The translations under genes and the position numbers were made by a program. A stretch of 64,000 nucleotides of DNA from Shewanella aestuarii (lineage in GTDB: Bacteria; Pseudomonadota; Gammaproteobacteria; Enterobacterales; Shewanellaceae): assembly GCF_011765625.1 (NCBI RefSeq), contig NZ_CP050313.1, positions 2,166,501 to 2,230,500 of the forward strand, in the 5' to 3' direction. This document shows positions 5,613 through 57,938 of the stretch, piece after piece. Below the pieces are notes generated by a model. The model did no database searches and was not told the DNA's origin. It saw nothing but the letters and a program-made list of their open reading frames with translations. Position 1 is the stretch's first letter. Every line of letters starts with the position of its first letter.

Positions 5613-8600
5613 ATGAAGCAATTTAATGTTATCGCGCCACCCAGTGTCAAAAAAGGCCAACAACTTCAAACCTTAGCCACACTAGGGGGAGTTTCTCAAG
5701 CACTCACCATCGCCAATTTGATTAAACAGCACTCAGGCACCAGTCTTATTGTCACTCACGATACCCCCAGCGCATTAACCCTAGAAGCCGAGTTAAGTTA
5801 TTTATTAGCCAATCACCCCGTCAATGTGTGTTTATTTCCTGATCGTGAAACGCTTCCTTACGACAATTTTTCACCGCATCAAGATTTAATATCTCAACGA
5901 TTAGAGTCATTAGCGCAAATTAGCCAGAGCTCGCACAATGTGGTTATTGTGCCAGTCAACACCCTAATGGTTCGCTTACCGCCAAAATCGTTTTTAACCG
6001 CAAATGTCATGATCCTAAAAAAAGGTGACATTTATGGATTAAGTCAGGTACGCCAACATTTAACCGACACAGGTTACCATGTTGTCGACCAAGTATACGA
6101 ACACGGTGAGTTTGCTATTCGCGGTTCAATTATTGATATTTTTCCTACGGGTTCAAAACAGCCATTGCGGATAGAATTGTTTGACGACGAAGTCGAATCT
6201 ATTCGCTTTTTTGATGTTGATAGCCAGCGTTCAGGCATGGCGCTCGACCAAATTCGCATGTTGCCAGCGAAAGAATTTCCTACCGACAGTGCAGCCATTG
6301 AAGGTTTCAGACAACGCTATCGTCGCCGCTTTGAAGTGATTTCAAAAGAACCTGAATCCGTCTACCAGCTGGTCAGTCGTAACTTAATGCCTGCAGGGAT
6401 TGAAAATTATCTGCCATTATTCTTTGATGAAACGGCTAGCTTGTTTGATTACCTACCAGAACAAAGCCAATTAATCACCCTTGGTGATATTGAAAAGTCG
6501 TGTCAGCAACACCTAGACGAAATACATACTCGCTATGAAGATCGCCGAGTCGACCCACTGCGGCCTTTACTTGAACCCAAAGAGCTATACCTATTAAGCG
6601 ATCAACTGTTTAGCGCCTTCAAACCCATGCAGCGCAGCCAACTCATTAATCTACCGCTTAATGAAGCCAAACAAGTTGATATTGATGCTTTACCAAAACA
6701 TGCATTAAGCGCCAAAGCCACAGCGCTTCCTGATATCAACGCGAATCACAAATTAAAACAGCCGCTACTCGCGCTTAAAGAATTCAGTCAAACACAACAG
6801 CAAATATTGTTTGTGGCAGAATCTGAAGGGCGACGGGAGGCATTGCTTGAACTATTCGCCAAAATTGATATTAAGCCTAAATTATTTAAGCACTTAGATG
6901 ATTACCTTAGCGGCAAAGATCCAATTGGTTTATTAGTATCGCCTTTGTCTCGTGGGGCACTAATCGATATTGAGCCAAAGGGCAATGTCAGTGTTATTTG
7001 TGAAACCGAGTTGTTCGGTCATCGGATTTCGCAGCAACGACGCCGCGAAAAACAAAAACAAGTCAGTTCTGATGTTTTAGTCAAAAACTTAGCAGAATTA
7101 AGGGTTGGCCAACCCATAGTGCATTTAGAGCATGGGGTTGCGCTTTACCAAGGCTTAGAAACTCTTGATACCGGAGGCTTAGTCGCTGAATACTTAAAAC
7201 TTGAATATGCCGGTGGCGACAAATTATACGTACCTGTGTCATCTTTGCATTTAATCAGCCGTTATAGTGTAGGCAATGAAGAAACCACCCAACTGAATAA
7301 GTTAGGAAACGAAACTTGGGCAAAAGCCAAGAAAAAGGCCATTGAACGCATTCGAGACGTCGCTGCAGAGTTACTGGATGTGTATGCCAGACGTCAAGCA
7401 CGACCAGGTGAGGCCTTAAGCCTTGATAAAGAAGAATATGCTGTATTTGCGCAAGCTTTTCCGTTTGAAGAAACTGTGGATCAAGAAACTGCCATTGATG
7501 CCGTTCTAACCGATTTACAAGCGCCAATGGCAATGGATCGCTTAGTGTGCGGAGATGTCGGCTTTGGTAAAACCGAAGTCGCAATGCGCGCAGCCTTTGT
7601 TGCCGTCAATGCCGGCAAGCAAGTCGTCGTATTAGTGCCTACCACCTTGCTTGCCCAGCAACATTTTGAAAACTTCAAAGACCGTTTTGCCGATTGGCCT
7701 GTCGTGATTGAGGTTATGTCACGCTTTCGTACCAGCAAAGAGCAAAATCAAGTACTAGACTCACTGCAAGAAGGTAAAGTCGATATTATAATTGGCACCC
7801 ACAAGTTACTGTCTTCAGAAGCTAAATTTGATAATTTAGGCTTATTAATTATTGATGAAGAACATCGCTTTGGTGTTCGTCAAAAAGAAAAAATCAAAGC
7901 CCTACGAGCCAATGTCGATATTTTAACTTTAACTGCTACACCTATTCCCAGAACGCTTAATATGGCGATGTCGGGAATGCGTGATTTATCCATCATAGCC
8001 ACCCCACCCGCTAAGCGACTTGCGGTAAAAACCTTTGTGCGTGAATATGATAAAGCCACAGTTAAAGAAGCCATATCCCGTGAGATTTTACGTGGTGGTC
8101 AGGTATATTATTTACATAATAACGTCGAAACCATTGAAAAAGCGGCACAAGATATACGTGATTTACTGCCAGAAGCTCGAGTGGTAACCGCCCATGGTCA
8201 AATGCGCGAACGCGATCTTGAAAAGGTCATGTCAGATTTTTATCATCAACGCTTCAATGTATTAGTGTGTACCACCATCATTGAAACCGGTATTGACGTA
8301 CCCAGTGCCAACACTATTTTAATCCACCGCGCTGATATGTTTGGCCTAGCCCAATTACATCAACTACGTGGTCGTGTGGGTCGATCTCACCATCAAGCCT
8401 ATGCGTATTTGATGACTCCTCACCCAAAACGAATGACATCCGATGCACGTAAACGCTTAGAAGCCATAGACGCATTAGAAGATTTAGGTGCAGGATTCTT
8501 ATTGGCTACTCAAGATTTAGAAATTCGTGGTGCGGGTGAATTACTTGGCGATGAGCAAAGCGGCCATATCAGTAAAATTGGTTTCAGTTTGTATATGGAA

Positions 8601-54203: not shown

Positions 54204-54638
54204 ATGCCTGCAGCTACAACGTTAATATCACAAATTATGACAACTCGAATAGTGACTATTGATATGGATGATAGATTATCCGTTGCAAAGCAAATATTTG
54301 ATAATGTTAATTTTCATCATTTATTAGTGATTGATGAAGATGATATTTTACAAGGTATTTTGTCGCATCGTGATTTTTTGCATGCATTAAGCCCCAATAT
54401 TGGTACAGCTGCTGAACTAGTGCGTGATACAGAAACCCTTAATAAGCGAATACATCAGGTAATGACACATAATCCTATTACCATTTCCCCTCATATAACG
54501 GTTAAGCAAGCAAGTGAAATCATTTTACAGAACAACATTGGCAGTTTACCTGTATTAAACAATGGCGTACTTGAGGGTATTGTGACTTGGAAAGACTTAC
54601 TCGGCGCCTATTGCTTAGATGGTAAAGATGATGAATAA
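54204..54638 (+). CDS. Tandem CBS-domain protein
   Basis: A 144-residue protein made of two CBS domains: ISQIMTTRIVTIDMDDRLSV through DILQGILSHRDFLHAL, then IHQVMTHNPITISPHITVKQ through GVLEGIVTWKDLL. Such pairs (Bateman modules) bind adenine nucleotides. No output domain is fused, so it must act on a partner. The partner is unknown. It is a single gene upstream of the DUF1538 cassette but separated by a further gene and about 900 bases. Confidence 0.88.
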   Translation: MPAATTLISQIMTTRIVTIDMDDRLSVAKQIFDNVNFHHLLVIDEDDILQGILSHRDFLHALSPNIGTAAELVRDTETLNKRIHQVMTHNPITISPHITVKQASEIILQNNIGSLPVLNNGVLEGIVTWKDLLGAYCLDGKDDE

Positions 54639-54941: not shown

Positions 54942-55286
54942 ATGATCAGGTTTAACTATCACCTCAATCAAGATAATTTTGAGTTACAAGCAAGTAATTG
55001 GTCGGGTTTAGAAAAAGTCGTTGTAAATGGACAAGTTGTGTCAAAAAAGTTCAATTTCGGCGTGTTAAGTAAACACGATGTTTTACTGAAAAATGGCGCT
55101 AAATACAGTTTTCAGCTATTGGTTGATCCAAAAACGGAATTGCTCACGTGTCGGATCTACAAACAACACCGCCTTTTAACTGTCCTAAAACAAAGTAAGC
55201 AGCAGCTACAAAAAAGCCAAAGAGTATTAGAAGTAGGATTAGTTGTCATGATGTGCTCACTACTGAGTATCTACCTGGTAGTTTAA
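54942..55286 (+). CDS. Hypothetical C-tail-anchored membrane protein
   Basis: A 114-residue protein I do not recognise by name. The first ~70 residues look like beta strands (MIRFNYHLNQDNFELQASNW, VVVNGQVVSKKFNF). A basic Gln/Lys-rich helix follows, and the protein ends in one membrane segment, VGLVVMMCSLLSIYLVV, as a C-tail anchor. The ATG at 54942 with AGGAG upstream is preferred to the frame start at 54918. Function unknown. Confidence 0.65.
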   Translation: MIRFNYHLNQDNFELQASNWSGLEKVVVNGQVVSKKFNFGVLSKHDVLLKNGAKYSFQLLVDPKTELLTCRIYKQHRLLTVLKQSKQQLQKSQRVLEVGLVVMMCSLLSIYLVV

Positions 55287-55554: not shown

Positions 55555-56289
55555 ATGTCTGCAGTGATAAAACTATTAACTGCCATGTTGAATAGTTTTA
55601 AAGATCTAATTCCAATCATTTTAGTTGTTGGATTTTTTGAAATTTTCATCCTTCAACAAGCACCTGAAAACCTTGGGTCAATTTTAGTAGGTCTGGTTTT
55701 TATTGTACTTGGGTTAACCTTCTTTGTTTTTGGCCTAGAAATGGGGTTGTTTCCCATCGGTGAGTCCTTAGCTGAAGCACTGGCTCGTAAAGGCAGCGTC
55801 TTTTGGTTAGTAATATTTTCTTTCTCATTAGGATTTGGCACAACACTAGCTGAGCCAGCACTTACTGCTGTGGCTAATGAAGCTGCAAAAGTCGCTGCTG
55901 AATCAGGTGCTATTAAGGATAATCAAGAATCATTAGATGAATATGCAATGGGTTTAAGGCTAACAGTGGCGATTTCAGTTGGCTTAGCCATTTTACTTGG
56001 CGTAATGCGGATTTTAAAAGGCTGGCCAATTCATTACATTATTATTGGTGGCTACATTTTAGTTATGACCCTTACCGCTTTCGCCCCACCAAGCATCATA
56101 GGTATTGCTTACGACTCAGGCGGCGTAACCACTTCCACCATTACTGTCCCCTTAGTTACCGCGCTGGGTGTCGGGTTAGCAACCGTCATTAAGGGACGTA
56201 ACCCAATGCTTGATGGATTTGGATTAATTGCATTTGCAAGTCTCACACCAATGATCTTTGTCATGATTTACGGCATGATTTTCTTATAG
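55555..56289 (+). CDS. DUF1538 membrane protein (first copy)
   Basis: A 244-residue polytopic membrane protein. Conserved blocks of the family are [34 protein letters not shown], and [20 protein letters not shown], then [20 protein letters not shown]. The charged and polar residues inside hydrophobic stretches (E in AEP, D and S in YDSGG) suggest a substrate or ion path. It is homologous throughout to the next gene. In some bacteria the two halves are said to be fused; here they are separate, nine bases apart. AAGGGA precedes the ATG. Substrate unknown. Confidence 0.85.
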
Positions 56290-56298
56290 GGAGCCAAC

Positions 56299-57069
56299 AT
56301 GTTTTATCAGCTTTTGGAAACCTTATTACTGACTGCCAGAGACGTTGTGCCCATAGCCATAATCTTATTTGGGTTTCAATTAGGCGTACTAAAGCGCCCT
56401 ATCCCCAACTGGCGTAAAGTCGCTCTGGGGTTTGTGTATGTCATCATAGGGCTAACATTTTTCTTAGTCGGGCTTGAACTAGCTTTATTCCCAATAGGGG
56501 AAAGCATGGCAAATCAACTAACCATGCCTGAATTTTTACATCCTGATGGTGCACCGACCCCATTTATCTGGCAAGACTATTTATGGGTTTACATCTTTGC
56601 AGCTGCTATTGGATTTAGCACCACCATCGCCGAGCCATCTCTAATTGCTGTAGCTATTAAAGCTAATGAAGTTTCAGGCGGCACCATTGGCATTCAAGGA
56701 TTACGAGTTTCTGTTGCTATTGGCGTTGCCTTTGGGATTTCTTTAGGTTGTTTTCGTATTGTGGCTGGCGACCCCATTCATTACTACATTATGGGTGGCT
56801 ATATTATTGTGGTCATTCAAACCTTTTACGCCCCAAAAATAATTATTCCACTGGCATATGACTCTGGAGGCGTGACCACCTCAACAGTTACCGTGCCACT
56901 TGTTGCTGCATTAGGCCTTGGCTTAGCCACCAATGTAGATGGCCGTAACCCTTTAATTGATGGTTTTGGCCTTATTGCCTTTGCCAGTTTATTTCCGATT
57001 ATCTCTGTAATGGCCTACGCCCAAATAGCTGAATATATCTCTAAACGAAAAGCTGCCGCTGAGCAGTAA
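56299..57069 (+). CDS. DUF1538 membrane protein (second copy)
   Basis: A 256-residue paralog of the previous gene, with the same blocks in the same order: [53 protein letters not shown] and [20 protein letters not shown]. It has an extra loop of about 20 residues (MPEFLHPDGAPTPFIWQDYL) between the first and second conserved blocks. The two proteins probably form a heteromeric membrane complex; that is inference from tandem arrangement. The PII-like gene starts 13 bases after it. Confidence 0.85.
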   Translation: MFYQLLETLLLTARDVVPIAIILFGFQLGVLKRPIPNWRKVALGFVYVIIGLTFFLVGLELALFPIGESMANQLTMPEFLHPDGAPTPFIWQDYLWVYIFAAAIGFSTTIAEPSLIAVAIKANEVSGGTIGIQGLRVSVAIGVAFGISLGCFRIVAGDPIHYYIMGGYIIVVIQTFYAPKIIIPLAYDSGGVTTSTVTVPLVAALGLGLATNVDGRNPLIDGFGLIAFASLFPIISVMAYAQIAEYISKRKAAAEQ

Positions 57070-57082
57070 GAGGAGCATACAA

Positions 57083-57433
57083 ATGCGCTTTAAATTAATT
57101 GTCGCCTTTGTTGATGACGACTGTACCGATGAAATTTTAGATGCCGCACGTGATGCAGGTGCCACTGGCGCAACGGTAATTAACCATGCACGCGGAGAAG
57201 GCTTAGTAAAGAAAAAAACCTTTATGGGCTTAGGGTTAGATGTGCAACGAGATGTGATTTTATGGTTAGTTGAAGAACACATGTCACGCCATATTTTAGA
57301 AACCATCGCAAGTGTTGGTAAATTCGATACCAACAAGGGACGCGGCATAGCGATTCAAATTGATGTTGGAGATGCCGTTGGTGTTGCCCATCAAGTGCAA
57401 GAACTCACAAAAGAAATAGAGGATCAACTATGA
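57083..57433 (+). CDS. PII-like signalling protein
   Basis: A 116-residue protein with the size and beta-alpha-beta pattern of PII. MRFKLIVAFVDDDCTDEILD is the first strand and helix, AARDAGATGATVINHARGEG leads into a long basic T-loop region (GLVKKKTFMGLGLDVQRD), and GRGIAIQIDVGDAVGV resembles the C-terminal PII block around the nucleotide site. The modified Tyr51 of GlnB/GlnK is not evident, so uridylylation is unlikely. Its place behind two membrane proteins recalls glnK-amtB and sbtB-sbtA. Its stop overlaps the next start (ATGA). Confidence 0.82.
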   Translation: MRFKLIVAFVDDDCTDEILDAARDAGATGATVINHARGEGLVKKKTFMGLGLDVQRDVILWLVEEHMSRHILETIASVGKFDTNKGRGIAIQIDVGDAVGVAHQVQELTKEIEDQL

Positions 57434-57831
57434 ATCCGAAAAAACACATTCGTAACCGTGACGTTTTAAGTCAAGACTTTGCCATGGTAGATGGTACACA
57501 TACTGTATCTGAAGCAATTGCGGTAGCGAGTCACAAACAAGTTAAAATTTTAGTTGTCAATAAGCGCACTAAGCATGATGAATATGGTTTAGTGTTAATG
57601 AGTGATATCGCACGAAAAGTGCTTGCACAAGACAAGTCGCCTGAACGTACCAATGTCTATGAGATTATGATTAAGCCCGTGTTTTCAGTATCAGCTGATA
57701 TGGATGTACGTTACACCGCAAGATTATTTGAACGTTTTGGCATTAATAAAGCCCCCGTAGTTGAGGATGGTAATATTATGGGCTTTGTTACCTATGATGA
57801 TATTGTCCTCAAAGGCATGATAGATACTTAA
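57430..57831 (+). CDS. CBS-domain protein of the DUF1538 cassette
   Basis: A 133-residue stand-alone CBS pair. The first repeat covers about residues 13-65 (VDGTHTVSEAIAVASHKQVK, YGLVLMSDIARKVL), the second 75-130 (MIKPVFSVSADMDVRYTARL, NIMGFVTYDDIVLKGM). Likely an adenine-nucleotide sensor. The four-base overlap with the PII-like gene means coupled translation, so two nucleotide-type sensors are made together with the membrane pair. Confidence 0.87.
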   Translation: MNPKKHIRNRDVLSQDFAMVDGTHTVSEAIAVASHKQVKILVVNKRTKHDEYGLVLMSDIARKVLAQDKSPERTNVYEIMIKPVFSVSADMDVRYTARLFERFGINKAPVVEDGNIMGFVTYDDIVLKGMIDT

Positions 57832-57910: not shown

Positions 57911-57938
57911 AAAAAAGGCGCTAATTAGCGCCTTTTTG
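57911..57938. terminator. Bidirectional terminator between the CBS gene and sucD
   Basis: AAAAAGGCGCT (57912-57922), loop AATT, AGCGCCTTTTT (57927-57937). The flanking A- and T-runs allow use by both convergent transcripts. Confidence 0.95.

Follow-up and report, generated by a model that had tools for sequence, protein, structure and literature searches.

The operon at positions 55555-57831 of the window (the whole stretch of 64,000 nucleotides that was analysed) probably encodes a monovalent cation/proton antiporter of the UmpAB type together with dedicated cytoplasmic regulators, among them a PII protein that would serve not nitrogen metabolism but the switching of the antiporter. The first-pass annotation had described the order DUF1538-DUF1538-PII-CBS with gaps of 9, 13 and -4 bases, and this description was borne out by four forward-strand open reading frames, all with Pfam scores above the cut-offs and with the PII and CBS genes overlapping by 4 bases. 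The features discussed here are as follows:

55555..56289, + strand: UmpA-like DUF1538 membrane protein, 244 aa (PF07556, 239 bits; cut-off 22.6)
55840..55875, + strand: 12-residue motif TTxAEPxLxAVA of UmpA, residues 96-107
56110..56157, + strand: 16-residue polar motif of UmpA, residues 186-201
56299..57069, + strand: UmpB-like DUF1538 membrane protein, 256 aa (PF07556, 228.9 bits; cut-off 22.6)
56620..56655, + strand: TTIAEPSLIAVA motif of UmpB (TTxAEPxLxAVA type), residues 108-119
56857..56904, + strand: 16-residue polar motif of UmpB, residues 187-202
57083..57433, + strand: non-canonical PII protein, 116 aa, proposed antiporter regulator (PF00543, 33.4 bits; cut-off 25)
57194..57256, + strand: PII T-loop (residues 38-58, from the alignment), short, no Tyr, conserved K-T-F-[FM]-G-L
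57430..57831, + strand: stand-alone CBS pair, 133 aa, putative accessory partner of the PII (PF00571, 56.5 bits; cut-off 24)
57912..57937, no strand assigned: inverted repeat with T-run, possible two-way terminator (by eye)

The whole 4.47 Mb genome contains only three PII matches, two of them canonical (115 and 110 bits) and the third that of the window (33 bits); since related loci also keep a PII gene at this place, its position is more than chance. The inverted repeat sits between the operon and a converging downstream gene; it was recognized by eye and is absent from the scan output. Upstream of umpA lie a second stand-alone CBS-pair gene (54204-54638), which carries two ribose-type motifs and is outside the set conserved over 80 near-relative loci, and a small uncharacterized gene (54942-55286; a 114-aa reading from ATG). 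The two co-travel upstream of umpA in 12 of the 80 loci, all from Shewanella.

The DUF1538 pair and its likeness to UmpAB

The two DUF1538 proteins of the window, encoded by adjacent genes, are 47% identical to each other, and the nearest named models for the pair are UmpA and UmpB of NCBIfam, the subunits of a Na,Li,K/H+ antiporter. The UmpA-like protein scored 363.9 bits against NF041627 (E 3e-109; equivalog cut-off 490) and the UmpB-like protein 333.4 bits against NF041628 (E 8e-100; equivalog cut-off 500). Because both scores are below the cut-offs, assignment of the pair as UmpAB proper was rejected, and the proteins were filed as DUF1538 family, UmpAB-like. The UmpA model was matched in 125 of 369 genomes of the class Gammaproteobacteria, none of which reached 490 bits, indicating that this cut-off is very narrow. 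Among named relatives, that of Shewanella holmiensis comes closest to the first gene (92% identical).

The first-pass annotation knew of no substrate, yet a substrate class is on record for one pair of DUF1538 proteins. As described in the available part of the report on UmpAB of Halomonas zhaodongensis (PMC5484666), this pair is a Na+(Li+,K+)/H+ antiporter that exchanges Na+, Li+ and K+ for H+ at pH 6.5 to 9.5, restores growth of E. coli KNabc under salt and alkali, and is a heterodimer by co-immunoprecipitation. That study subcloned umpA together with umpB and no further gene, so that antiport by a DUF1538 pair alone is demonstrated for one homologue and no PII or CBS protein from an operon is needed for transport by the Halomonas pair; activity in E. 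coli without PII or CBS partners of its own fits a regulatory role of the latter. The terms PII, P-II and CBS have zero occurrences in the paper (PMC5484666). By analogy, the pair in the window may move the same ions. Exchange or efflux is likelier than the uptake that the first-pass annotation proposed to compare, since UmpAB works as a monovalent cation/proton antiporter (PMC5484666, available part).

Both polar motifs that had been read in the two membrane proteins were located in each of them at defined residue positions. In the model of a fused homologue, the helix breaks at the TTxAEPxLxAVA site of UmpA, where E and P are invariant, and again just after the 16-residue motif, in which D is invariant. 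DUF1538 is encoded either by two genes or in a single tandem chain of about 480-650 aa, and the tandem homologues are consistent with two subunits that act as a pair. One 679-aa protein (P0142) has three DUF1538 stretches; a long segment of the first recurs in the second, which may reflect a duplication made in assembly.

It is unlikely, though it deserves a hearing, that the DUF1538 pairs of this branch mainly move some other solute (e.g., bicarbonate, ammonium or an organic ion) whose metabolism the PII senses as SbtB does for SbtA, the Halomonas antiport being a side activity. In its favor, nitrogen compounds or bicarbonate are the cargo of the transporters known to bind PII (PMC10710835, available part), the equivalog scores fall short as described above, and the DUF1538 family is also common in Bacillota and not confined to halophiles. 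Against it, the sole pair to have been tested exchanges Na+, Li+ and K+, and with it growth under salt and alkali is restored (PMC5484666, available part), and no conserved linked assimilation gene was noticed, in neighbor counts that covered PII and CBS only.

Linkage of PII and CBS genes to DUF1538

Conserved linkage outside close relatives, on which the first-pass annotation had made its reading depend, was found in the Pseudomonadota sample, in Bacteroidota and on Bacillota plasmids. A genome scan identified 152 relatives, and the best 80 of these all have umpA-umpB-PII-CBS in the same order. At one of these 80 loci (L015), umpB is split. DUF1538 was matched in 126 of 398 Pseudomonadota genomes; 68 of the 126, picked for genus spread and best matches, were read, resulting in 71 DUF1538 systems, 64 of which have a PII gene no more than 500 bases downstream. 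The other seven comprise one with PII upstream (G138, L113), two contig-end fragments (G156 and G218) and four without an adjacent PII (G084, G116, G245 and one copy in G121). Both G084 and G116 have a PII-CBS unit elsewhere in the genome, retained together with DUF1538, and another DUF1538 copy in G121 does have its PII (L239); no PII of this type was found in G245, an 84%-complete draft. Within the Gammaproteobacteria, the 20 best-scoring loci from the 125 matching genomes were read, a set that leans to the window's type, and 19 have a PII gene within the 1.5-kb flank; at the last of them (L247), PII and CBS genes lie about 1.4 kb further on.

Similar results were obtained for more distant groups. 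Eleven of 296 Bacteroidota genomes (the phylum of L074) match DUF1538, nine of them above the cut-off, and PII is present in all nine, a count that leaves out the two weak matches. Nine plasmid records match; seven were opened, the other two being further strains of species already opened, and PII adjoins DUF1538 in all seven: five from Bacillota with a two-domain PII (the first domain being weak in L213, E 0.005) and two from Alphaproteobacteria with one domain. Judged from gene order, the pairing of PII with DUF1538 is conserved in the manner of PII-gated transporters. Two loci (L113 and L196) show two DUF1538-PII systems of unlike architecture side by side; the PII of the second pair in L113 lies upstream of that pair.

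The co-occurrence search that had been suggested was run on the same 398 genomes, with a profile of this PII type (E <= 1e-8) as the query. Both DUF1538 and this PII type were present in 120 of them, PII only in seven (127 with PII in all), DUF1538 only in six and neither in 265; these counts are inflated by shared ancestry. Counted by genus, DUF1538 was present in 42 of 212 and this PII type in 44 of 212. PII proteins of this type also stand alone, away from DUF1538 (L223-L226, L228 and L232-L235), and L223 comes from a 99%-complete genome that has no DUF1538 match. Among the Pseudomonadota loci with a lone further PII (L224, L225, L226, L232, L233 and L234), several have a putative argB-like neighbor, as judged by eye. 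No DUF1538-PII fusion was seen among the homologues whose domains were read.

The CBS gene had been counted as one of four packed parts. It is present at the locus and beside the system in 80 of 80 near relatives, but the wider samples show it to be an accessory gene, as evidenced by its occurrence in at least 39 of the 71 Pseudomonadota systems (some loci being short), in one of nine Bacteroidota systems and in none of the seven opened plasmid records. It adjoins PII apart from DUF1538 in G084, G116 and G156 (where the DUF1538 piece is a contig-end fragment); at loci L220-L222 it stays with PII away from the DUF1538 genes. The motif [ST]xx[DN], which we take to be the ribose motif of CBS adenine-nucleotide sensors, or one of that type, was found in the second half of the CBS protein in 73 of 106 relatives and in the first half in 7 of 128.

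These distributions bear on the idea that PII and CBS act on another target, an enzyme or a regulator, and share the operon for co-expression only. The occurrence of this PII type away from DUF1538, in some cases by a putative argB-like gene (L224 and L234, by eye), and the separability of the PII-CBS unit (L220-L222) would suit such an arrangement, but co-occurrence is near-complete over 398 genomes, and PIIs of one, two or three domains directly adjoin DUF1538 in three phyla, which makes it improbable.

Residues and domain arrangements of the PII proteins

The protein of the window belongs to the PII superfamily (PF00543, 33.4 bits against a cut-off of 25), and a profile of its relatives matches GlnB/GlnK structures (E 2e-5). 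Compared with the two canonical PIIs encoded in the same genome, it shows a five-residue gap in the T-loop region and has Gly for Tyr51, Val for Gln39, Ile for Lys90, Gly for Arg101 and Ala for Arg103 (in what we take to be E. coli PII numbering), all of which the canonical proteins retain. The latter four are presumably the ATP and 2-oxoglutarate binding positions in PII proteins of the GlnB/GlnK type. Since these residues and Tyr51 are missing, both uridylylation and GlnB-like sensing of ATP/2-oxoglutarate are unlikely for the window PII. The absence of the T-loop Tyr, already remarked upon in the first-pass annotation, extends to 136 of 136 aligned relatives; the loop was also called basic, which is correct, though only mildly so (its net charge is +2 in the window and averages +0.7 over the 136 relatives).

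Conservation was counted over the alignment of the same 136 relatives. Within the T-loop, K45 is kept in 99, T46 in 119, F47 in 123, G49 in 131 and L50 in 115; other positions that are kept include R37 (125), G86 (134), G88 (136) and Q104 (123), and G38 and G40 are also conserved. We presume that R37, G38, G40, G86, G88 and Q104 lie in loops that shape the ligand cleft of canonical PIIs. The alignment indicates that the loops have not decayed, despite the loss of the canonical residues.

The PII occurs in several forms: one domain, as in the window; two genes or one two-domain chain, in most Bacteroidota, the Bacillota and a distant branch of Pseudomonadota; and three domains in one chain. The last form was seen in its genome context at L211 only, where a 380-aa chain of three PII domains (6801-7940) adjoins a 626-aa tandem DUF1538 protein. 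It represents a family of about 375 aa with 148 matches; when a PII profile built in this analysis was applied to the 120 matches listed, at least 98 had three PII domains, 15 had two and seven had one, and the few names given are Spirochaetia, Syntrophales, Zixibacteria and Sediminispirochaeta. The two-domain chain of Bacillota gave 2753 matches, with two domains in all 120 listed; where these carry a name, it is mostly 'P-II family nitrogen regulator' or 'nitrogen regulatory protein PII'. A tree was built from 70 PII domains (103 columns; many forks open); in it the first domains of both phyla group together, with weak support (86/64), and domains from each of the three positions in the triple chain fall into groups of their own. 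Because the domains thus group by position, the arrangements with one, two and three domains look old. At four loci (L182, L183, L194 and L237), two PII genes come after a tandem DUF1538 gene of a distant branch, and the second of them has diverged strongly.

It is very improbable that the PII serves the antiporter as a fixed structural cap, without a ligand-driven switch: the canonical phosphate-binding and 2-oxoglutarate residues are lost and a three-domain chain could form such a cap, but the six presumed cleft-loop residues are conserved, and Halomonas umpA and umpB alone are active in E. coli (PMC5484666, available part).

Proposed control of the antiporter and comparison with known systems

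In the mechanism that we favor, the two homologous DUF1538 subunits would act as a heterodimeric antiporter. The PII is probably a trimer and belongs to a branch other than that of GlnB/GlnK; through its short conserved T-loop it would bind to the cytoplasmic face, and a small ligand in the clefts between its subunits would decide whether the transporter is held or released, PII binding adjusting or blocking exchange. The CBS pair, where present, may work with the PII as a second ligand input. Direct binding by PII, docking through the T-loop, inhibition as the sign of control and the existence of a ligand input are features that we infer from the genes and their residues. The transporters named as PII-bound in the available part of PMC10710835 are AmtB, Nrt, Urt and SbtA, and according to the same text PII seems to be used only with transporters able to form trimers; if so, UmpAB should be a trimer of heterodimers. 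Counting against regulation of an antiporter by PII are the missed UmpA/UmpB cut-offs, the DUF1538 systems without an adjacent PII, the lone PIIs, the lack of a fusion and the description of UmpAB as a heterodimer.

The known role of PII proteins is the sensing of nitrogen and carbon, and antiport by DUF1538 proteins, the PII superfamily and PII-regulated transport are all established. We consider the chances about even that DUF1538-PII has to be added to AmtB and SbtA as another major class of transport under PII control, namely a monovalent cation/proton antiporter gated by a dedicated, nitrogen-unrelated PII branch that runs from one to two to three PII domains, the last a natural single-chain PII trimer. 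Neither a conserved PII partner of DUF1538 in three phyla nor three PII domains in one chain was found in the open-access literature, paywalled work being outside the search. If this is true, a switch known from ammonia uptake would also act in the salt and pH balance of Pseudomonadota, Bacteroidota and Bacillota; many proteins named 'P-II family nitrogen regulator' would then be regulators of ion homeostasis, for which the automatic naming is misleading. With three non-identical domains, the faces of the trimer could differ in what they sense or touch, and single PII units of a three-in-one chain could be changed alone, which is impossible in a homotrimer. The linkage further suggests what may regulate an antiporter family that has hardly been studied.

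Among known systems, as portrayed in the available parts of the two sources, UmpAB of Halomonas zhaodongensis shares with the window two adjacent homologous DUF1538 genes and provides the nearest named models; it differs in that the paper is without PII or CBS (PMC5484666) and that the window proteins score below the cut-offs. GlnK-AmtB likewise has a PII gene beside a transporter gene and resembles the T-loop docking proposed here, but the transporter is of another family, and the window PII is without the uridylylation Tyr and the ATP/2-oxoglutarate residues (PMC10710835). SbtB-SbtA offers a PII-like protein free of uridylylation control beside a Na+-linked transporter; unlike the exchange proposed here, SbtA takes up bicarbonate, and SbtB binds AMP (PMC10710835). 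In CorB/MpfA, MgtE and OpuA, a CBS pair is a nucleotide-responsive regulator of ion or osmolyte transport, though it lies inside the transporter, whereas in the window it is a separate gene beside that of the PII (PMC10710835).
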